31,011 bases of DNA from the IMG/VR virus record IMGVR_UViG_3300007523_000052, positions 1-31,011 of that record; one strand, given 5' to 3'. The notes under the pieces were generated by a model. The model was not told where the DNA came from. It did not search any database and saw only the letters and a list, made by a program, of their open reading frames with translations. The position numbers and the translations under genes were made by a program. The stretch comes from a virus. Positions 9,707-29,994 of the stretch are shown piece by piece. Position 1 is the first letter of the stretch. Every line of letters starts with the position of its first letter.

Positions 9707-10363
9707 TTAAGGTCTATCAACGTAAGCGATGTGCATCATATCGCGGCGGGTTCCATCAGATTGTAAAAATCCAACTTGGAAGCCATGTTTTTTAAATATC
9801 TTGATTGCGACGGGCGGCATTTCATATGTTCCGTTATCTGCTTTCGCTCCTGACCTCCATGTGTGCTTGTTTCCATTAGCATCTTGATTGAGATCGATTG
9901 CGATCGCCCAAGAATGATCAGACAGTGCATTTCCTGATCGTGATTTGCGATGATTGAAACATCCGGCGTATAGATCAAGCCCGTGCTTTTTGATCCATTC
10001 CTCGCCCTTATCTGCAATCTCTTTTAGCGCATCCTCCAAGGGTTTTGCAATAAGCGCATGACAGCCGATTTTAGATACCTTAGCACCAAAGTAGGTCATC
10101 TCGTAGGGGGGGACAAACAAAGCCATACTAGGAGATCCTGCGGCCCCAAAGATGCGCGATTTATCAGCGGCAGTCCCTTTAGGTCTTGGCGGTCGAGATC
10201 CATCGGACCTCCTCGCCTCTGTTTTGGATCCAAAACGAGAAACTAATGAATCATACAATGCCGCCTTAGTTTTTTGCCCATCCAATCCATCAGCAGGCCC
10301 GGGATCGAACCCAAGCGTCTTGAGTCCGATCTGCTGGCAATAGATGGCGTGGGAGTAGCTCAT
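9707..10363 (-). CDS. endolysin: peptidoglycan-binding plus M15 D,D-peptidase-like
   Basis: The 218-aa protein has an N-terminal peptidoglycan-binding-like repeat (QQIGLKTLGFDPGPADGLDG, KTKAALYDSL, about 10-40), a basic linker, and a C-terminal M15-type peptidase. Zinc ligands are read as H150 and D157 in LSDHSWAIAIDLN and H211 in DMMHIAYV, with D208 as the likely catalytic acid. No signal peptide is seen, so release would need the neighbouring membrane proteins. It sits between the holin-like gene (2 bp away) and the small coiled-coil gene, which fits cell-wall degradation at lysis. Confidence 0.85.
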   Translation of the reverse strand: MSYSHAIYCQQIGLKTLGFDPGPADGLDGQKTKAALYDSLVSRFGSKTEARRSDGSRPPRPKGTAADKSRIFGAAGSPSMALFVPPYEMTYFGAKVSKIGCHALIAKPLEDALKEIADKGEEWIKKHGLDLYAGCFNHRKSRSGNALSDHSWAIAIDLNQDANGNKHTWRSGAKADNGTYEMPPVAIKIFKKHGFQVGFLQSDGTRRDMMHIAYVDRP

Positions 10364-10539: not shown

Positions 10540-12141
10540 TTAGGTGGGAAGAAATGTCACAATTCGGTTCGCCAAATGACTTGCCCCAACTGGTCCGAAA
10601 TGAGTTGACGCCGAGCTCGCTGGCGAGTCTCTCGTTGATCTTGGAACGATGCCTCTGGATTGATCCGATATGTCGTTAGAACCGATTGGAGTATAGTTTG
10701 CCGGATTGATGAACCAGTCTTGAACGTCGATATAGTAGACTCTCGAATCTGATGCAGCGATTTCCGATAATCCGGCATTGATGAAATCAAGATGGCCTTG
10801 CAGGGTTGCTATCGTTTGAAACGTCGCATCCGTCACCGTCCGGTTAGGGCATCCAAGGATTAGGACTCGCTCAGCACCTGCGATCAAGGCGCGATGAACC
10901 CCTTTGAATGCGGCATCGATGACGATTTGCCGCTGGCTAGCTGAGTTATTTCCGATCCAAAATGCAACCACTTTTCGCTCAATATTTGATAGCGGATATG
11001 TGAGAAATCTATCGATAACTGGGACAGCCGTTTGCCCTCCGATGCCGCTTATTTCAGCCCTCCAAAGAGGAGAATGAAGAGTGGTTGCGCGTTCAAATGT
11101 ATTTGGATCGGCGTAGCTCTCGGTCGTCAAGCTGTCGCCGATAGCGAGGACTGACCTATACCGTTTGAGGGTTTTTGGTAGATCGGTTTTAAGGGTCGCA
11201 AAATCAACTGCTTGAGCCGATGTCAGAGCGTCGATTGACCTCTCGGATAGCTGCCCGAACCCATAGGCAAAGAATCCGATCTTGCCGTTCATGTGCGAAT
11301 TAGTGGCAACCGTTGATACGAATGACCTGCCTATGTTGAGGGGATAATTTGTTAGGTCGAATCCAGCCGATCCGCTAACGAGAGAAGCGTGATCATATGC
11401 CTCTCCAACCTCTGAAACGTATAGGTAGAGCCCCGTTGAATCGTTTCGGAATGCGATCACATAATCAACTCCTGACGTGACTCCCGCCACTTCGACAACG
11501 TCGAAATTAACGGTAGTGCTCATCCGCCTGACCGTAAATCTGATTATGTTTCCGATCTTCGAGAGATACCAGTTAAGAGTGGTTCCCGATGTCCCCTCTC
11601 CGCAGATTCCATCGGTTGAGGGATCTGCGAAATTAACCCCGATGACTCCCCAAAAAGGACGGCCTGCGCGGGTCGTGTTTGATGCTGATAAACCGAATTG
11701 ATTGGTGCCGTTGAATGATCGGGACTCCCTAAACCTCCCTCCTGATGCGCTGTTGTTTGCAACCCCGTTGACTGATAGATTGAGGGATCCCACTCTATCG
11801 ACGTATGCCGTTCCTGCCTCGTTGCAAAAGTAGCAATGTTCCGCGCCTCGAATCACCTCGGCGAGAGTTGATCTCTCTCTTTTGAAATGATCTGACGTTG
11901 CTAGTGATAGCGGTCCGAATGTTTCAATGTTCGTCTTGAGGTCGAGCGCCGTGAGTTGAGCAGTGGAAACAGGCTTGTTTTCGTCGCTCGTATTGTTGAC
12001 GAGGTCTAGCGAGATCCCTTTTTTAATGTCAGAGAGACGCGCCTTTGTATCAAGGCCATCGTCGTTGAACGTATAAACATAGTCATCCGGAACGGGGGAT
12101 AGATCGTCCGGTAGGTCTAAAACTGTGATTCCTGCTGGCAT
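10540..12141 (-). CDS. tail fibre with LamG-like domain and SGNH-hydrolase domain
   Basis: The 533-aa protein has an N-terminal tail-attachment region typical of phage fibres (LPDDLSPVPDDYVYTFNDDG; NTSDENKPVSTAQLTALDLK), then a beta-rich concanavalin/LamG-like domain (about 100-310; NGTNQFGLS, LYLYVSEVGEA) and a C-terminal SGNH hydrolase: GDSL with S337 (335-338), a Gly in SGIGGQ (365-370), GNN (397-399) and the catalytic His in STHFGPVGASHLA (H514). Predicted role: bind and deacetylate or de-esterify a surface glycan during adsorption. The usual Asp three residues before the His is Ala (A511), so the triad may be incomplete. It is the last tail gene before lysis. Confidence 0.8.
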   Translation of the reverse strand: MPAGITVLDLPDDLSPVPDDYVYTFNDDGLDTKARLSDIKKGISLDLVNNTSDENKPVSTAQLTALDLKTNIETFGPLSLATSDHFKRERSTLAEVIRGAEHCYFCNEAGTAYVDRVGSLNLSVNGVANNSASGGRFRESRSFNGTNQFGLSASNTTRAGRPFWGVIGVNFADPSTDGICGEGTSGTTLNWYLSKIGNIIRFTVRRMSTTVNFDVVEVAGVTSGVDYVIAFRNDSTGLYLYVSEVGEAYDHASLVSGSAGFDLTNYPLNIGRSFVSTVATNSHMNGKIGFFAYGFGQLSERSIDALTSAQAVDFATLKTDLPKTLKRYRSVLAIGDSLTTESYADPNTFERATTLHSPLWRAEISGIGGQTAVPVIDRFLTYPLSNIERKVVAFWIGNNSASQRQIVIDAAFKGVHRALIAGAERVLILGCPNRTVTDATFQTIATLQGHLDFINAGLSEIAASDSRVYYIDVQDWFINPANYTPIGSNDISDQSRGIVPRSTRDSPASSASTHFGPVGASHLANRIVTFLPT

Positions 12142-15221: not shown

Positions 15222-17447
15222 CTAGCTGGATGTTTGAATTTTCTCGAAGGATCTAAGTTGTCTCTCAGCGAGATCAATCAATCGATCTGTTTTTGATAGG
15301 ATCGGATTCTCGTTTGCTTCTTTCGCTGCGAGGTTGTCCCTGAGATTTCTAGCGGCGGCATCGGCGAGCTTGTTGTCTTTGTCGGCACGAATCAGGACAA
15401 TCTTTTTGCGCTTACCGTCACGAGCCATCTTCCGGTTCCCCTCCTCATCGAACCTGTTATCAAGACCGCCTTCCTTACCATCAATCTTGATCTGCAACTC
15501 TGATTTTTGGCGAGCCAATTTAAGTGCGTTCTCCTCAGTGATTCCGGTTTGTTCAGCTATCTGTTTTGCCCTCTTCCTGAGTTCGATTTCATCCTCAAGA
15601 GCTTTCGCTTGGGCCTCGAATCCGGCGGCCTTTAGTTTGAGGATCGTGAGCTCCTGAGCTTCTTCTCTGAGTGCCTCCTTTTGAGCTGTATCTTTCCTCG
15701 CGACCTCATCAAGAAAGTCGCCAGCTTTCGCCGCCTTCGCCTCCTCGGCATCAGCAAGAGCCTTCGCCTCTGATTTGAGTTTCTCCTCAATCGTCAGGAT
15801 TTCCTCCTTCTTTGATTTTAGATCTCCTGCGAGAATTAGCAGTTGCTTAGCGACATCTAATTGATCATTACCTGCAGCGGCACGGGCGAGATCTGTTAGG
15901 CTTTCAGAGCTAACTTCTCCGGGTGCCGTGATACCATTAGCTTTAGCAAAGGCTTTTGCTGATTCAACCAGCTTATCCATCTTAGCTTGCTGAGCGTCTA
16001 GCTGTTCCTCCTGAGTTTTGCCTGCCAATTCAGCGGCCAATACCCCAGCTGCGATCGTGTTGATCTCGGTTTTAAGAAGTGCGTTTGATGCTTTGCGCGT
16101 TTCTGCAATACCTATGTTTAGAAGGTTGAGCTTATTAAGTTGAGCTAGGTGAAACTCTGCTGATATCCTTTCCGCTTTTGCTAGGATTGCTATCTCGCGA
16201 TCAATATCAAGCTGCTTTGCTCGCGCCCTTGTCTGATCGGTTTTAGTGTCATTGAATAAGTTCGGATCGTCAAAATCCATTCCCTCCGCGAATTTATCGC
16301 CGAAGATTTCCCCCGCTTTATATCCCGCAACTGCAACTGCAGCCGAAGCGACTGATATCCAGTCGAGCGACGAGGACCGGATAGGGTCACCCCGTAGCGG
16401 GGGCAAAGACGTCCGTCCGGGAGGTATCATCGAATTAGCAATCTTGGCCTTTGAATTTGCCAGAACCGCAGCGGTGTTTAATCCCGTCGCTATTGTGCTT
16501 GCTCCTAGTAACAACGTGCTCGCCCCAAGTGCCAATCTATAAGACGCGTATGTTTTTATGATAGTAAGAAACACGCCACTATGATCAACCATGAACTGAG
16601 TCAGGCTAACCAGCATCTCTCCTCCCGCCTTTAACGCGGGGGTGAATTCAGTGAGAAGCTCAACGCCTGATCTCATGACTTTGATGAATTCAAGCTGTGC
16701 TGGCATTAACTCCTCCCCAAGCTTTGCCTTCGTATTCTCCAATTCGGCGGCGAGAATGCGCTGCTGGTTAGCCATGCCTCCAGATGTTTTAGTAAAGTCC
16801 CCCTGCGCGTCCGTTGTCCTTTGATAGATTAAATCAAGGGAAACAATCTGCTTAGTTCTTGCATCAAGAACGCTTTTGCCATCGGAAATTCCTAACTGAA
16901 AAGCTCTCTCTTTAAGCATCGCTTCATTCACGATGACGTTAAACTTCTTTAGCTGAGCGAACTCTCCGCCAAGGGCTGCCGCGATCGCTTCCTTCGCCTC
17001 GTCTTGATCGGTGTTGAAGAATGATGCCAAGTCAGATGATAGACCTACAAGCTGCCTAGATATCAATTCGGCCTCTTGCTCGGTCTTCCCTCCAATTTCT
17101 TTCAATGCACCTCCGAATCGTGATGCAAAATCTAGGGCTGTTTTAGTTGATAATCCCAAGCCCTTCGCTTGTCCTTCTGCCCATTTCACGGTCGTATTGC
17201 TATCACCGAAAACGGCATTCGTTTTTGATATGGTCTCGCTAAGGTTTGAAGCGGAATCAACGAGTGATCCAAATAGCCCGATTATTGATTTGATTCCAAG
17301 AGCCCCAGCCGCGAATCCAGCAAGGGCTTTCGTCGATCCAGATATGCCAGAGGTAAACTTTCCAACCGAAGTATCCGCTTTTCCGAACTCGCTACGGAGC
17401 TGTGCCGAGTCCGCTCTCAGTTCTGTTACGATTCGATTTCGAGCCAT
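15222..17447 (-). CDS. tail tape measure protein
   Basis: The 741-aa protein is the longest in the window. The N-terminal third resembles phage tape measures (MARNRIVTELRADSAQLRSE; STKALAGFAAGALGIKSII as a hydrophobic segment around 38-60; VFGDSNTTVKWAEGQAKGLG and ALGGEFAQLKKFNV). A second hydrophobic stretch lies around 290-345. From about 400 onward it is charged coiled coil. Role: set tail length and pass into the host envelope during DNA ejection. At about 0.15 nm per residue the tail would be near 110 nm. It lies just after the G/G-T chaperone genes, the conserved siphovirus order. A TTAGACA sequence lies 14 nt before the start. Confidence 0.9.
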   Translation of the reverse strand: MARNRIVTELRADSAQLRSEFGKADTSVGKFTSGISGSTKALAGFAAGALGIKSIIGLFGSLVDSASNLSETISKTNAVFGDSNTTVKWAEGQAKGLGLSTKTALDFASRFGGALKEIGGKTEQEAELISRQLVGLSSDLASFFNTDQDEAKEAIAAALGGEFAQLKKFNVIVNEAMLKERAFQLGISDGKSVLDARTKQIVSLDLIYQRTTDAQGDFTKTSGGMANQQRILAAELENTKAKLGEELMPAQLEFIKVMRSGVELLTEFTPALKAGGEMLVSLTQFMVDHSGVFLTIIKTYASYRLALGASTLLLGASTIATGLNTAAVLANSKAKIANSMIPPGRTSLPPLRGDPIRSSSLDWISVASAAVAVAGYKAGEIFGDKFAEGMDFDDPNLFNDTKTDQTRARAKQLDIDREIAILAKAERISAEFHLAQLNKLNLLNIGIAETRKASNALLKTEINTIAAGVLAAELAGKTQEEQLDAQQAKMDKLVESAKAFAKANGITAPGEVSSESLTDLARAAAGNDQLDVAKQLLILAGDLKSKKEEILTIEEKLKSEAKALADAEEAKAAKAGDFLDEVARKDTAQKEALREEAQELTILKLKAAGFEAQAKALEDEIELRKRAKQIAEQTGITEENALKLARQKSELQIKIDGKEGGLDNRFDEEGNRKMARDGKRKKIVLIRADKDNKLADAAARNLRDNLAAKEANENPILSKTDRLIDLAERQLRSFEKIQTSS

Positions 17448-17479
17448 TTGATACTAGGTTTTGTCTAATCAACGGAGAT

Positions 17480-18180
17480 TCATTTTCGCATCTTTTCGGT
17501 GATAGCGTTCCACCACTTTTTTTCCTTTGCGGTCCCGCCGGGAATCGTCATCGGGGCTCCATCCAGTAGTCTCGCGGCATGGAAGTAAGCCCATCCTCTT
17601 GATAGCGGGAGCTGCCATCGAATATAATCTTCTGACCAGCCAGTGCGAGAGGCGATAACAATCACGTATTGAGCCTCTGGAACTGGCGGTATTAGTTTCC
17701 CGACGGCGATCCATCATCTACGGGGGAGGGGTGATTTACGGTTGATCTGTTATGGATCAGCAAGGCCAGCTCTGCGGCTGATTCGCGAGTGCCCGGTGGG
17801 ATTGCGGCATCAGCCCAATCATCGATTACATCCTGCATTACTGATGGGCTCGATCTTAGCGCTGTGATCTCCTCTTTTGATACACTGCAAAGCCATAGGA
17901 TTCGCGCGGCATCAGCTAGGAATGCTGTGAAGTCCTTGTTGATCTCTGCGAGCGTAGGCGATCCCATCGAGCGCCTGAGGGAGTAGAACACGCTCTCGCG
18001 GGCGAAAGAGAACGGCTCTAGCTCTCGCCCGTCCCATGTTGGATTTGACGCGAAGGCGTCCTCCCGCTCTTGTTCGTCGATGTCCGGCGCGTCGTCTTGA
18101 AGGATTGTCGGCTTTGTGTATCGACGCTTCTTTTTCTGTTCCGGCTCTTGGATTGTCGGTGGATCGTTTGATGTTTTCAT
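17480..18180 (-). CDS. tail assembly chaperone G-T fusion (via -1 frameshift)
   Basis: Reading of gene G shifts to the -1 frame at GGGAAAC (17701-17695), one codon before the G stop. Translation then continues through KLIPPVPEAQYVIVIASRTG, WSEDYIRWQLPLSRGWAYFH to a stop at 17480, adding 71 residues for a total of about 233. The T part has no ATG of its own; GTG at 17665 is the only conventional start and would remove the first ten residues. In lambda and many siphophages, a small amount of G-T is made in this way and coats the tape measure during tail assembly. Gene order here (G, T, tape measure) is identical. The T part is rich in Trp and Arg. Confidence 0.8.
17692..18180 (-). CDS. tail assembly chaperone G
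   Basis: The 162-aa protein begins MKTSNDPPTIQEPEQKKKRR. The central helical part reads EPFSFARESVFYSLRRSMGS then FTAFLADAARILWLCSVSKE, a pattern I associate with tail-assembly chaperones of this phage type. The C-terminus ends in a flexible DDGSPSGN. Role: bind the tape measure and guide tail-tube polymerisation, remaining outside the mature virion. The slippery heptamer at its 3' end makes it the abundant short form of the G/G-T pair. Confidence 0.75.
   Translation of the reverse strand: MKTSNDPPTIQEPEQKKKRRYTKPTILQDDAPDIDEQEREDAFASNPTWDGRELEPFSFARESVFYSLRRSMGSPTLAEINKDFTAFLADAARILWLCSVSKEEITALRSSPSVMQDVIDDWADAAIPPGTRESAAELALLIHNRSTVNHPSPVDDGSPSGN
17695..17701 (-). promoter_or_regulatory. 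programmed -1 frameshift slippery heptamer GGGAAAC
   Basis: Read in the G frame as G GGA AAC followed directly by the TAA stop, it fits the X XXY YYZ rule and differs only in the last base from the lambda G-T site GGGAAAG. The -1 frame reached is exactly the one holding the T segment. Confidence 0.85.
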
Positions 18181-18197: not shown

Positions 18198-19034
18198 TTA
18201 TCCTAGGAAATGACGCTTCATTTTGTCGAATCCAGCGCCAGACATATTTGGGTTAATGATGGCTGCCCGGATGCTATTCGGCTTGCGTATCAATACGTGC
18301 TCTGTATCGCTCTGAATGCTCTTGACGAGTCGCTGATAGTTCACAAGTCCAAGTATAGGGTAGCAAATTGGATGCTCTGCATGGACCGCTTTGGCTCTCC
18401 AATCACGCATGAGATCCCCCGCCATTTCACGTCCCAGAGTCGATACCCTTTTTTGAGCGTCTAGGTAAAATTTACGTGCCCCATGCGGCCCCCTGACCTC
18501 TAGGACTGGCACACCAAATCTAGCGAGTGCGGAAACCAGATTGAGGTCAGACGTTTCTAAAAGTTTTGATACCCCGTGGATGCCGGGGAAGCTCGTTCCC
18601 GATCCATCTCTGTAAAAGGTCCGATCAGTTCCGGCCTGCTTTACAAGCTCAATCCGGGTGCCTCTATTGACTGAGTCAAGAAGTCGATCCCGATTCTGCT
18701 TCGCATAACAAATATCAAGGACTGGGTGTTCAGGTTGATCTCGCAATAACTGGCCGCTATCAAATTGCGTTTTGATTCCTGATGAATCAATCAAGCCGTC
18801 TAGGCTTTTCGCTGCGATATGAAACACGCAATTTGATTTGCCGCTGAGTTCATCAAATGATCGTTCAGTTCGGACTAGAAATCCCATAGTGCCGAGCGAT
18901 GCGGCTAGGATTGTTTTGGTGGTTGATATCCAAGCTTCCATTATGGGATCGATATAAAAAGGGTTCCCGCTTCTTGATTTGCCACCAGGCGGGACTGGCG
19001 CAATTAGGTTTATGATGGACCTTGCTAGGCTCAA
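18198..19034 (-). CDS. tail-module protein, unknown function
   Basis: The 278-aa protein lies between the tail tube candidate and chaperone G. It starts on TTG at 19034 with MSLARSIINLIAPVPPGGKS; no better in-frame start is seen nearby. It contains FLVRTERSFDELSGKSNCVF and a basic C-terminal region (RKFYLDAQKRVSTLGREMAG; RDWRAKAVHAEHPI). I do not recognise a family. A tail terminator or tube-associated role would fit the location but has no sequence support. Confidence 0.55.
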   Translation of the reverse strand: MSLARSIINLIAPVPPGGKSRSGNPFYIDPIMEAWISTTKTILAASLGTMGFLVRTERSFDELSGKSNCVFHIAAKSLDGLIDSSGIKTQFDSGQLLRDQPEHPVLDICYAKQNRDRLLDSVNRGTRIELVKQAGTDRTFYRDGSGTSFPGIHGVSKLLETSDLNLVSALARFGVPVLEVRGPHGARKFYLDAQKRVSTLGREMAGDLMRDWRAKAVHAEHPICYPILGLVNYQRLVKSIQSDTEHVLIRKPNSIRAAIINPNMSGAGFDKMKRHFLG

Positions 19035-22537: not shown

Positions 22538-23350
22538 TTATTTCGATTTGTTAAATCCGTTCTTGTTGAGGTGTTCAACAGATAGATTCAAAGCGCCGAT
22601 GAATTCGCGCTCCGCTTGATCGATTGCGGCGAAGAATCGATCTTCCGGAAGAGCCTCGCCGATATGAGGAACGATGTTCCATATTTTCGCGACCGCCCTA
22701 ATTCCACCCCTGAATGATGCGCCCCCTATGTTCCCCCTCTTTGATAGAGCGCGGACATATGATGGAAACTTCTCGACAGTCTTTCCGGTAGTCCTTGATA
22801 CAGTTCGAGTCCTTCCGCCCAGCGCTTTTGCGGCAGCAGCCCATCCAGCTTTTGCTAGTCCGGCCTTCTTCTGAGTTTTACGGATGTATGCTGATAATCT
22901 AGTGTCGGTTGAGAACGAGATAGTGGCGGCGTCCGTAGGGACTTTGCCTCGACTCTTCCTTGCTGATTGATGCTTGACTGGATCGATCCCCCTAGGAAGA
23001 TTGGCCCTCCTCATGATTCTAGCCTGAGCCTTTTGATCTTGTGATTTATAGGCAGCCCAGAAAGCCATTGCTAGTTTAGCGTCGCTCCTTTTTATGTATT
23101 CAAAAACCTTGCTAGCGTTATCCTTAGAAGGGAAGAGCCTCTTGATATCGTTCTCTATCCGGCCCTTGAGTTTTGCGGCCCCGCCCTCAGCCATGCGAGA
23201 CGGGAGAGTGTTTGCCCCTAGATTAACAGCGAGCGCCCTGGCTTCTTGAACCAAGATCGAATTAATTGTTCTGCCAACCTTTTCTGGGTGCCTCTTGAGC
23301 GCATTGATGAAGTCATCCGCTCCTCGCATCTTGAGATTTACAGTGATCAT
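22538..23350 (-). CDS. HK97 gp10-like neck/tail-joining protein, extended
   Basis: The 270-aa basic protein begins MITVNLKMRGADDFINALKR, where a gp10-type protein starts with the GxDxxxxxLxxxP pattern, and ends in helices (FFAAIDQAEREFIGALNLSV). It is about twice the usual gp10 length, with a long Lys/Arg-rich middle (IMRRANLPRGIDPVKHQSAR). Role: joins head and tail. The start overlaps the stop of the head-closure gene (ATGA-type). Order head closure, gp10-like, completion, tube is the standard one. Confidence 0.65.
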   Translation of the reverse strand: MITVNLKMRGADDFINALKRHPEKVGRTINSILVQEARALAVNLGANTLPSRMAEGGAAKLKGRIENDIKRLFPSKDNASKVFEYIKRSDAKLAMAFWAAYKSQDQKAQARIMRRANLPRGIDPVKHQSARKSRGKVPTDAATISFSTDTRLSAYIRKTQKKAGLAKAGWAAAAKALGGRTRTVSRTTGKTVEKFPSYVRALSKRGNIGGASFRGGIRAVAKIWNIVPHIGEALPEDRFFAAIDQAEREFIGALNLSVEHLNKNGFNKSK

Positions 23351-25511: not shown

Positions 25512-26354
25512 TTATGAGTTAGATAGTCGCTCCATTTCGCCTTGTAAGACCTCATGGATTCCTAGGGCTATCCTATCAACTAGCGTTGAAGGGGCGTTCA
25601 TAGCGTCAAAACACTGCCCTTGCATTACTGATTCCTCGATTCCGGGACGGCAGGATCGAATATGATTTTTGAAGTCAGCGGACCACTGTTCAAGTCGTGA
25701 TTGTAGAAATGATTCCTCCTCTGCGGTCCATTCCTTTCCGGGATGACCCATTGCTTTATACTCGCCATCTTTAAAAAGCTTTAGTTTGATCCCCTCCATC
25801 TCCCATGCTTTTGAGTCATCGATAGCGGCGACGTATGTCCCGATAGATCCAACCTGAGCGCTTGGAGATGCTACGATCTCTTCAGAGCATGCCGCGAGCC
25901 AGTAGCCAGCGGAACAACATTGATAGTCCGTAAATGCGACGACGCGAGTTCCCGAGTCCTTGACTGACTGGAGTCTCATTGCGGTTTCCTGCAATCCAAT
26001 TCCGCATCCTCCCGGTGTGTCGATATCTAGGACGAGGGTTTTGATACCAGGATCACTAGCGATATCAACAAGCAGTCGGTCAAGGATTGATAGATCGATC
26101 AGTTGAGGTCCGCACATATCAGGCATGGCCTTTTTTACAATAACTCCGGAAAGCTGAATTAGGGCAATCCCGAATTCAGAATCAACCTCGTAATGGATGC
26201 CTCCGCTATAATCTGTCCCGCTTCCGTGGAGTGATGCAGGGATATTTCCTTCGAGGTAGTTTCTAAAGTTTTGCGATAGCTCGGCGTGGACTCCGGGGAG
26301 AATGCACCACGGCTGGCAGTATAAGGTTGATGCGATTAAAGGGAGATGTTTCAT
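25512..26354 (-). CDS. prohead protease, S49 (SppA/lambda C-type)
   Basis: The 280-aa protein has the S49 fold with a catalytic Ser-Lys pair: S148 in the CCSAGYWLA block (146-154) and K200 in FKDGEYKAMGHP (194-205). Supporting blocks are TLVLDIDTPGGCGIGLQETA (106-125) and ASPSAQVGSIGTYVAAIDDS (162-181). Role: cleave scaffold and perhaps portal during prohead maturation, as lambda gpC does. It follows the portal gene by 2 bp, exactly as expected. The scaffold here is a separate gene rather than an internal in-frame start. Confidence 0.9.
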   Translation of the reverse strand: MKHLPLIASTLYCQPWCILPGVHAELSQNFRNYLEGNIPASLHGSGTDYSGGIHYEVDSEFGIALIQLSGVIVKKAMPDMCGPQLIDLSILDRLLVDIASDPGIKTLVLDIDTPGGCGIGLQETAMRLQSVKDSGTRVVAFTDYQCCSAGYWLAACSEEIVASPSAQVGSIGTYVAAIDDSKAWEMEGIKLKLFKDGEYKAMGHPGKEWTAEEESFLQSRLEQWSADFKNHIRSCRPGIEESVMQGQCFDAMNAPSTLVDRIALGIHEVLQGEMERLSNS

Positions 26355-26356
26355 GG

Positions 26357-27859
26357 TTATTCTGAAGGATCTTGATTAGGTTCGGGGGGCTCTGATTCCT
26401 CAACTTCTGGCGATGCGGCCCCTTGACGTGGGCGGAAAACCTCGGTGTATTTGTAGCCAGCGACGCGGGACGCCTCCACTTTATATTTGTGTTCGGCAAC
26501 AACCTGATCCACCAAATCTCGCCAATCGTCGCCCGTTGTCTCCTCGCTCCAATCGGCGAGAGTGGCGGTTCCGGAGTCGATCTCGTCGAGGCGCTGCTTG
26601 CCCTCTTTCCCCCTGTCGATAGTGAGACTCCGGCGCTTTGTGAGTTTCAACTTTTGCATCCAGTCGTCGTCGGTGCATTCGCGAAGTCGCCCCGATTTGA
26701 TCTCTTTCGCGGTATCATAAACCCAATAACGATGACAGAATTCATCTAGCTGTTCCTGTTTGTCTTCGATCCATTGCGACGCCATCGACATGACAAATCG
26801 GACTCCGGGGCCAGTCAATCTCTTGACGAGGATCATCACAACTTCTTTTGCTAGTCCCCATCCGGTAGCGATTTCATCCACTAGGTTTTCCTCGAATGAT
26901 AGCTGGTTCGGGTGCGGTCTAGCGTCGTGGACGATAGACAACTTCTCGCCGGGTCGAGTTTCAGGGATTACTCCACCATCGAACACTTCAGACGTTTTGA
27001 TCTTCCGGTCTGTTCCGGTTCCGTCGTCGCGAGTTGACGCACGGCCAGGCATTGTGACCGATGCTTCCATTCCTCCAACTATCCTGTTAGGATTAGATCC
27101 TGCGGCCTGCTCGCTGATCACGCCAAATAGGGAGCTGTTTTTGATAGCGAGTTTCAGGAATCCTCTCGTCTCTGAAATGTCCTTAGCGTGATTGATCGCA
27201 TAGCCTAGAGGAGGGTGAGGGCGAACGTGTCCGACACTATCAAAATTTCCAAAAAGGAAAGCATCTTGAGCGTCGATCACTTTGACTGAGTCGCCGCTTT
27301 TCACCCCATAAGCTAGGTGTGCTCCGGCCTTGTTGATCTTAACACCTTCTTTCCAGATGCTTGCATCCGCGCCGTCCGGATTGGAAAGCTGGTGCGCCTC
27401 ATAGAACGCGCATCGAGCACCGCCGCTAGGAGTTTCGGTAAAGACGACTAGGATATCACCATCTTCAAAGGACCTCTCTAGGAGCATCCTCTGAGCTGTT
27501 TTGAAGGTAAACTTTCCAGCGTTGTCGAAGATCAATCTCGCTTTGTTTCGAGCCTTGAATGTTCTATCTCGTTCCTTGTTCCATTCGACATCTCTTGTTT
27601 GCGCGTGAGTGGTTTTCCATCCAACAAGCATCGCGGAGTTTTTAATCAGCCCCCTGATTGCTCCCGAGTTTGCCTTGAGCCAGCGACCATCTCTGATCAA
27701 TGACGCGCGAGAATATGAAGATAGTTCCGCCCCAGTTTCGAGAGACGTGAAGGGTGTAAATCCTCGTCGCATCGATGTTCTAGTAGCGTCGTAAATGTCA
27801 GACTTCGGTGCTAGTATCGATGCGTTAGATGCGGATCGGTTGCGTGATTTTCGAGACAT
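26357..27859 (-). CDS. portal protein, lambda family
   Basis: The 500-aa protein has lambda-portal features: an N-terminal RSASNASILAPKSDIYDATR, the crossover-type LKANSGAIRGLIKNSAMLVG (about 62-81), AQRMLLERSFEDGDILVVFT, a middle YGVKSGDSVKVIDAQDAFLF segment, VDEIATGWGLAKEVVMILVK and a C-terminal acidic/Pro tail. Role: dodecameric vertex through which DNA is packaged and ejected. It is encoded between the small joining protein and the protease, matching lambda A-W-B-C order. Confidence 0.9.
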   Translation of the reverse strand: MSRKSRNRSASNASILAPKSDIYDATRTSMRRGFTPFTSLETGAELSSYSRASLIRDGRWLKANSGAIRGLIKNSAMLVGWKTTHAQTRDVEWNKERDRTFKARNKARLIFDNAGKFTFKTAQRMLLERSFEDGDILVVFTETPSGGARCAFYEAHQLSNPDGADASIWKEGVKINKAGAHLAYGVKSGDSVKVIDAQDAFLFGNFDSVGHVRPHPPLGYAINHAKDISETRGFLKLAIKNSSLFGVISEQAAGSNPNRIVGGMEASVTMPGRASTRDDGTGTDRKIKTSEVFDGGVIPETRPGEKLSIVHDARPHPNQLSFEENLVDEIATGWGLAKEVVMILVKRLTGPGVRFVMSMASQWIEDKQEQLDEFCHRYWVYDTAKEIKSGRLRECTDDDWMQKLKLTKRRSLTIDRGKEGKQRLDEIDSGTATLADWSEETTGDDWRDLVDQVVAEHKYKVEASRVAGYKYTEVFRPRQGAASPEVEESEPPEPNQDPSE

Positions 27860-28171: not shown

Positions 28172-28178
28172 TGTCAAA
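28172..28178 (-). promoter_or_regulatory. TTTGACA box, 15 nt before the 28156 start
   Basis: Exact TTTGACA one nt after the large terminase stop; spacing to ATG is 15 instead of 13 nt. Confidence 0.4.
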
Positions 28179-28179
28179 G

Positions 28180-29994
28180 TTATGAGACTCCTTCTTCTTC
28201 CATTTCCGATTCATCGAAAACCTTCTGCATCCCCATTGACGGGGCCATGATTTGCCAGACCGCTTTCGTATATTTCAGCGTGTCCCACCAGTCATTAGGC
28301 CCCTTCTTGATCCATTCCCAGCCATCGAATCCGAATTTATTCTTGAGCTTAACGGGTATTTCCATGGTTAGCTCGGTGAGAAATTCAGCGTCCGCGTTTG
28401 AATCACTTGGCAGAACAACGAGCGGGATCTTCTTTTGTCTGCTATCGGAATAGTGCTTTCGGCGGAGGGAATTTAATAGCTGCCACTTGAAAGCGCGGTC
28501 GTCGATATGGTATGAAATCACAAGCTGGCCATCTAACGATCCTTGAGATTTAACAACAAGATCTTTGACCTGTCTTCCTCCCCGTCCCTTGACCGGATAG
28601 AATCTTGGTTGCGTATCTAGGTGATACCGCCACACGTCCTCCTTGTCGTTGCCCTCGTCGATGAGCCCGCAGTGAACTATCATCGGACCTTTTGATGTTT
28701 CCAAAACCTCATCAGCGAAGTCCTCCATGTCCCCGAATGAGAAGAATTCCCCCCAGTCAATGACATACATATTACCGTCTTTATCAAACAATGATTTCGT
28801 CGCCTTGAGTCTGAGACCGTCCTGAATGTCTACCGCAATCACGTATAGGACTGGCTCGATACCAGGAGGGCATTGGCCTCTAACGTAGTCCCCTCGTAGT
28901 TCTAGGAGCTCATGATTCGTAACTATACCTCCGCTTTGCTCATAGTGCATCCCACGCCGGCCTCGCATAAATCGCTCAAGTTTTGCCGGGTCTCCTTGGG
29001 CTTTGATCCACTCAATAGCTAGCGCTCCGAATGTAACAAACGCGGAATAAGCATCCCATAGGTGGATCGATCTAACACGTGCGGGAGCCTTGAGATTCGT
29101 GGCCACGCTCCGAAAGTCTTGCATCGCGGGAAGCTTTTGATGGTCGAAAAGCCTCCCGTCGTCGCATGATTTACACCGAAAGTAAGCCCCTTTTTCAACA
29201 AGCGATAGGTCAAGTTCGTCCTCCTCATCTCTAAATTCATCGGTCGAGAACACGAAGTTATCCCAGTCAAGAGCCTGCTCGAATCCACAACAAGGGAACG
29301 GGAATATGATCTCTTCTTGAGTCCCTTTTTTGTGCTCCATCGTGATCAATCCAGAGCTGCCAGGTGTGCAAAATCCTAGTATCTTCGCGTTCCTCGGAAC
29401 CTTGCATCGATCCCGTGCGAGGTCTGAAGTCGTTCCCTGCCCTTCAATATAGTCGTGCTCATCTAGCTCATCTAGTATAAAAAGGCATGTCGATTTGTTT
29501 GCAAATCCGCTAGCAGATTGACCGCCCATCATATAGACCGTGATGCCGGATAGATAAAAGGTAAGGTTAGAAACGTCGTCGGGGGCTTCCCCCATCTCTT
29601 CCAAGATCTTGTTTTCTGAAAGCCACTTTTGAAGGCGGGTCCGGGATACTCGCCGCGCCTCTTCGATGGTATCAAGCGCGTATCCGATAGCTCCGCCACG
29701 GTGAGCGACAAACCAGCAGATTATAATCAACGCCGCCATCGTGACTCCCACCTGAGAAGATTTCTTGATCCACATCTCACTTTTGCCAGGTCGCTTTACC
29801 CATTCCATTACCTCCCGAACGTATGGGCTATAATAACTAGACCATCGCTGACCTCCCATATCGGCGTTCTCCGTCTTGGGAATTCGTAGGCATCTCTCAG
29901 CCCATTGCCATATCTCCTCATCGGGTTCGGGCGCGAAGATGCCAGCAAGCACCCCCCTAACAAAGGTATGAACCTCATCCATGTTTTGCCTCAT
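28180..29994 (-). CDS. terminase large subunit, lambda GpA type
   Basis: The 604-aa protein has an adaptor-like start, a Walker-A-like KSSQVGVTM (78-86) and Walker B LFILDELD (171-178). A zinc-ribbon-like pair of cysteine clusters sits at 235-236 (PCCGF) and 274-277 (FRCKSC); the first is CC rather than CxxC. The nuclease domain includes YVIAVDIQDGLRLKATKSLF with D389. Role: ATP-driven packaging and cleavage of concatemers. The GpA type suggests cohesive-end packaging. The ATG overlaps the small subunit stop as ATGA. Confidence 0.93.
   Translation of the reverse strand: MRQNMDEVHTFVRGVLAGIFAPEPDEEIWQWAERCLRIPKTENADMGGQRWSSYYSPYVREVMEWVKRPGKSEMWIKKSSQVGVTMAALIIICWFVAHRGGAIGYALDTIEEARRVSRTRLQKWLSENKILEEMGEAPDDVSNLTFYLSGITVYMMGGQSASGFANKSTCLFILDELDEHDYIEGQGTTSDLARDRCKVPRNAKILGFCTPGSSGLITMEHKKGTQEEIIFPFPCCGFEQALDWDNFVFSTDEFRDEEDELDLSLVEKGAYFRCKSCDDGRLFDHQKLPAMQDFRSVATNLKAPARVRSIHLWDAYSAFVTFGALAIEWIKAQGDPAKLERFMRGRRGMHYEQSGGIVTNHELLELRGDYVRGQCPPGIEPVLYVIAVDIQDGLRLKATKSLFDKDGNMYVIDWGEFFSFGDMEDFADEVLETSKGPMIVHCGLIDEGNDKEDVWRYHLDTQPRFYPVKGRGGRQVKDLVVKSQGSLDGQLVISYHIDDRAFKWQLLNSLRRKHYSDSRQKKIPLVVLPSDSNADAEFLTELTMEIPVKLKNKFGFDGWEWIKKGPNDWWDTLKYTKAVWQIMAPSMGMQKVFDESEMEEEGVS

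Follow-up and report, generated by a model that had tools for sequence, protein, structure and literature searches.

In phage lambda, the tail assembly chaperones gpG and gpG-T are encoded before the tape measure gene, and gpG-T arises when ribosomes slip by -1 at a heptamer of the GGGAAA type close to the stop of G; T has no start codon of its own and a lambda-type terminase and portal lie upstream, as is also the case for phage N15 GT. Both lambda proteins attach to the tape measure protein, and the partner of T is the tail shaft protein (PMC5009743). The heptamer GGGAAAC has been reported as a frameshift site in Caulobacter phage CcrColossus (PMC3556154) and in a haloarchaeal virus (PMC5009743). 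The CcrColossus genes gp116/gp117 (JX100810) carry an annotated programmed frameshift, in which the stop TGA comes immediately after GGGAAAC and the zero frame ends in GLGN; the tape measure gene is next. A stop directly after the slippery heptamer is also found in eukaryotic viruses, in unrelated genes (PMC4373837), and in an annotated SEA-PHAGES set the mean distance from the slippery site to the in-frame stop is 26 nt (PMC10885494).

We analysed a 31,011 nt stretch of the IMG/VR virus record IMGVR_UViG_3300007523_000052 (hereafter, the window), which very probably (about 93%) encodes a lambda-type tail assembly chaperone pair made from one start codon via a programmed -1 frameshift. Its layout is that of lambda and N15, but no sequence homology to lambda was found, the heptamer is GGGAAAC instead of GGGAAAG and touches the stop codon, and the window has a strong covarying hairpin. 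Compared with CcrColossus, whose heptamer and abutting stop are similarly placed, the G and T sequences are not recognisably related, the stop is not TGA, and no comparable hairpin was seen when the single CcrColossus sequence was folded. The mechanism has been described before; new here are its protein family, the hairpin and the fixed position of the stop.

The slip site and the G and T reading frames

The whole G/T locus is encoded on the minus strand. The G-like gene (17692..18180) runs in the zero frame from ATG to TAA and encodes 162 aa, and its 3' end reads TCG CCG TC[G GGA AAC] TAA. The slippery heptamer G GGA AAC (17695..17701) thus consists of the last two sense codons of this ORF and one base before them, in the X_XXY_YYZ register, and the TAA (17692..17694) occupies the intercodon position with no gap. 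In the -1 frame, the T part (17480..17698) has AAA as its junction codon and continues for 71 residues (LIPPVPEAQY...KMRK) to a stop. This frame is open from just 6 codons upstream of the first T residue (L1) and ends at 17480, and the first ATG, GTG or TTG in it is a GTG at residue 11 (plus coordinate 17665). GGGAAAC occurs six times in the window on the two strands together, so the heptamer by itself is no rarity. Chance falls far short of explaining that it is in register, touches the stop and is kept in 28 of the 31 clusters of relatives.

A preliminary description of this DNA had placed the heptamer in the X XXY YYZ register at the end of a G-like gene directly before its TAA, followed by a 71-residue -1 extension without its own ATG and then by a tape measure gene. 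Its coordinates agree with the sequence. The strand, which had been left out, is minus (heptamer at 17701-17695), no ATG, GTG or TTG precedes residue 11 of the extension, and a tape-measure-like ORF does start behind it, at 17447. The junction peptide proposed there, SPSGKLIPP, would be formed only if slippage precedes A-site decoding. Under tandem slippage the main peptide would instead be SPSGN-LIPP, because the A-site AAC would already have been read as Asn before the slip.

A third-frame ORF with an ATG start (17469-17717, 82 aa) was considered and rejected; it is not conserved, its frame being interrupted by stops in 5 of the 15 diverged relatives and bearing no sign of coding selection. 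By visual check, no obvious upstream SD-like stimulator was present in the window or common to the relatives.

Conservation of the slip site among relatives

Relatives were retrieved with the T part from IMG/VR, from Verrucomicrobiota genome assemblies (Prosthecobacter, Verrucomicrobiaceae) and from a single phage isolate, Akkermansia phage Moulinsart. It took the T part to find them, as the window G protein alone found no relatives in viral_contigs. A tblastn search of phage records with the window T gave no match, and the family-consensus T as query found Moulinsart. Loci found by protein similarity and by DNA pattern together gave 64 sites, which form 31 clusters at <90% DNA identity.

In 30 of the 31 clusters, a slippery heptamer is present and TAG or TAA comes immediately after it. 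The heptamer is GGGAAAC in 28 of these, GGGAAAA in one (L009) and AAAAAAC in one (Moulinsart), the two variants still being slippery sequences. The DNA-pattern search demanded GGGAAACTAG, and the loci fetched by it (L030-L077) are not independent evidence for the letters of the heptamer and TAG; the unbiased figure is therefore that of the clusters found by protein similarity alone, 16 of 17 of which have the heptamer with the abutting stop. The preliminary description had suggested asking whether the heptamer and the -1 frame are conserved together. They are, with T in the -1 frame in these 30 clusters, and the one exception, L028, has another A-rich slippery run. Around L028 2900-3258 there is no GGGAAAC-stop site, and an AAA AAA AAA G run (A9G) lies ~10 codons before the zero-frame stop; the frameshift site has moved while T stayed in the -1 frame.

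Moulinsart (ON453896) is the closest isolate. Its T homologue is 45% identical to the family over 51 aa, its slip site reads A AAA AAC TAG, and a hairpin follows with a folding z of about -4.6. It differs from the window in the AAAAAAC heptamer, in three ORFs between T and the tape measure gene, and in its annotation, in which G and T are two hypothetical proteins with no frameshift annotated. The Moulinsart T (L083 11087-11332) is mis-started, being annotated from an ATG at 11120 with the loss of its first 11 residues.

That this arrangement recurs across dozens of independent contigs, and also in the genome of a phage isolate, makes it exceedingly unlikely that one gene was split by a sequencing or assembly frameshift, or that transcriptional slippage joins the frames. 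An A run is present at these sites, and polymerase slippage is conceivable at the A9 run of L028. GGGAAAC itself is a short run that is unlikely to make RNA polymerase slip, and the phase of the heptamer and a hairpin at ribosomal spacing fit slippage by the ribosome. The last base of the heptamer counts against ribosomal frameshifting to some degree, in that A_AAA_AAC is reported to be much less shift-prone than A_AAA_AAG in E. coli (PMC5009743), though GGGAAAC has itself been described as the site in CcrColossus and the haloarchaeal virus.

Coding signal and start codons of the T frame

To profile coding in the three frames, we compared T residues 2-10 in 15 diverged sequences. Of the codon differences, 47% were synonymous when read in the T frame, as against 8% for the G frame and 6% for the third, and stops were present in 0, 12 and 5 of the 15 sequences, respectively. 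Most possible T starts lie inside or downstream of these residues, no start codon position is common to the relatives, and five clusters (L021, L028, L038, L057 and L076) have no ATG, GTG or TTG from the opening of the frame to residue 27. Because residues 2-10 evolve as coding sequence and there is no shared start, the T frame appears to be translated from upstream, which would require a change of frame. A conserved -1 coding frame that seems to lack its own start is what is expected of a programmed -1 frameshift signal.

The same data bear on whether T could be a separate gene with an internal start, at GTG 17665 in the window and at a GTG at residue 5 or 13 in relatives, much as T is annotated in Moulinsart, from an ATG at residue 12. 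The GTG of the window has a GAGG 8 nt upstream, which also counts against the frameshift reading. That GAGG derives from conserved Glu-Ala codons, however, and an SD-like motif is found in just 2 of 25 window genes. Since there is no common start position, the five clusters offer no start at all up to residue 27, and the codons upstream of the candidate starts are conserved and evolve synonymously, we regard a separately initiated T as very improbable. The case that the preliminary description named as refuting its reading, a relative without the slippery site in which T has its own start, was not found among the relatives, several of which have no in-frame ATG, GTG or TTG to residue 27.

Another pattern was noted elsewhere in the window. 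Five genes on the minus strand have a TTTGAC placed exactly 14 nt ahead of their ATG (12748, 19479, 23693, 25510 and 30847; shuffle expectation 0.34), and a sixth copy has a 16 nt spacing, at 28178. This motif is possibly a non-SD initiation signal or a promoter signal of these phages.

A covarying hairpin downstream of the heptamer

A predicted stimulatory stem-loop (17635..17690, minus strand; folding z -4.1 in the window) follows the heptamer. Its conserved core stem pairs 17687-17680 with 17646-17639, and an inner helix pairs 17678-17673 with 17653-17648. The spacer from the heptamer to the core stem is 7 nt (17688..17694) and includes the stop codon, and the window stem as a whole reaches to 4 nt from the heptamer.

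Folding z-scores were calculated for 31 clusters in a 61 nt window from +5 to +66 after the heptamer. The mean was -3.74 at the hairpin, compared with -0.55 to +0.24 in 20 flanking windows. In the core stem, 93% of the cells were paired, and the covariation score was 0.41 versus 0.105 when shuffled and at most 0.093 when slid. Changes on both sides were found at four of the eight pairs, and one position shows all four Watson-Crick pairs (CG, GC, UA and AU). The columns 22-64, in the core stem, are the top covarying pair among all 663 variable column pairs. Their bases occupy the third positions of a Pro and a Thr codon in T, and the protein thus does not account for the pairing.

Stimulatory structures in such signals generally begin 5-8 nt downstream (PMC4066793). 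At 4-7 nt after the heptamer, the hairpin has about this spacing and is a putative stimulator; an Rfam search gave no match. The hairpin is new here and is evidence that the preliminary description did not have. Together with the comparison of relatives, it argues strongly for the -1 frameshift that had been proposed from the window alone.

The stop codon abutting the heptamer

The T codon that overlaps the zero-frame stop is CTA (Leu) in every member with GGGAAAC or AAAAAAC, with its third base invariant, although in most of these loci CTA accounts for 1-17% of CTN codons (in the window, 29%). In 23 codons of 14 protein-found sequences, the A of this CTA was the only degenerate third position that never varied, the other invariant third-base column being Trp TGG. 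TGA was found at none of 30 abutting stops, though it makes up 46% of stops in these loci. The position of the stop looks selected, because CTA is invariant though usually rare and the other degenerate wobble sites vary.

These patterns allow a refinement of the frameshift reading, not a competitor to it, in which the abutting stop is a working part of the signal. Slippage from the E and P sites, with the A site occupied by the stop, would compete with the release factor, and the speed of termination would set the ratio of G to G-T. Stop and hairpin would hold the ribosome with GGA-AAC in the E and P sites, and the supply of release factor would tune the ratio. The invariance of CTA, usually a minor CTN codon, beside varying wobble sites and the lack of TGA at the 30 sites point this way, as does competition by the release factor at a stop after a slippery site on bacterial ribosomes (Horsfield 1995, as described in PMC4373837). 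In HIV-1, however, frameshifting fell when a stop took the place of the intercodon (PMC4373837), and the stop of CcrColossus is TGA. The arrangement could also just end G without extra residues, and the relatives are not independent of one another, with 14 of the 31 clusters coming from a pattern that contained TAG. We consider this role of the stop doubtful; if true, a DNA phage family would have a -1 frameshift coupled to release factor.

Gene neighbourhood and predicted proteins

The gene order in the window is a lambda-type terminase (GpA, 28180-29994) and lambda-family portal (26357-27859), an S49 protease (25512-26354), and then G, T and the tape measure, and this synteny is conserved. 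Two further genes on the minus strand are syntenic in relatives, one in the upstream structural module (22538..23350) and one immediately upstream of G (18198..19034). The tape-measure-like protein (15222..17447, minus strand, 741 aa) is called from its position, size, composition and synteny; it has weak PHROG matches to unnamed families, and homologues lie behind T in L066 and L008. The G and T genes thus lie directly upstream of a probable tape measure gene in a lambda-type morphogenesis module.

Sequence searches of PHROGs, Pfam and the PDB gave no significant match to G or T, and they form a family that matches no named family, which is a new detail here. The G model has a helical domain and less ordered ends (pLDDT 84), and against viral models its only named match with a probability >0.5 was phage N15 GT (probability 0.85, with a weak E of 0.17). 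The T model has four short helices and no significant match to viral models, and a fold search of the PDB returned nothing useful. Because the sequence and fold matches are absent or weak, the chaperone role rests on the gene order, the frameshift and the tape measure next door. We therefore infer this role from architecture and the weak G fold match, and not from sequence homology to lambda.

Two other proteins in the window were noted. The tail-region protein at 10540-12141 matches GDSL lipase/acylhydrolase weakly, at an E of 5.8e-7 that narrowly misses the Pfam cut-off, and is perhaps a host-surface esterase. The protein at 9707-10363 resembles the one annotated as the Moulinsart endolysin (38% over 95 aa).

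Proposed mechanism and significance

The compared sequences have a conserved heptamer, a -1 coding frame without a shared start, a hairpin, a fixed abutting stop and conserved synteny; that slippage occurs, its rate and the chaperone function are what we infer. The majority of ribosomes would end G at the TAA adjoining the heptamer. A smaller share, holding GGA and AAC, would be impeded by the hairpin 4-7 nt further on and shift back by one base, re-pairing with GGG AAA; they would then continue in the -1 frame to make a G-T protein of about 233 aa. If the proteins work as in lambda, the tape measure protein would be covered by G together with a few copies of G-T, and T would bring in the tail tube protein.

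The lambda-type G/G-T scheme likely gains a Verrucomicrobiota phage family that protein family libraries do not recognise, with a putative frameshift signal backed by three independent comparative features, namely the heptamer, the fixed stop and the covarying hairpin. Present annotations, for example that of phage Moulinsart, split and mis-start the T part. The family would also provide a natural bacterial system for asking whether a stop right after the slippery site affects -1 slippage.
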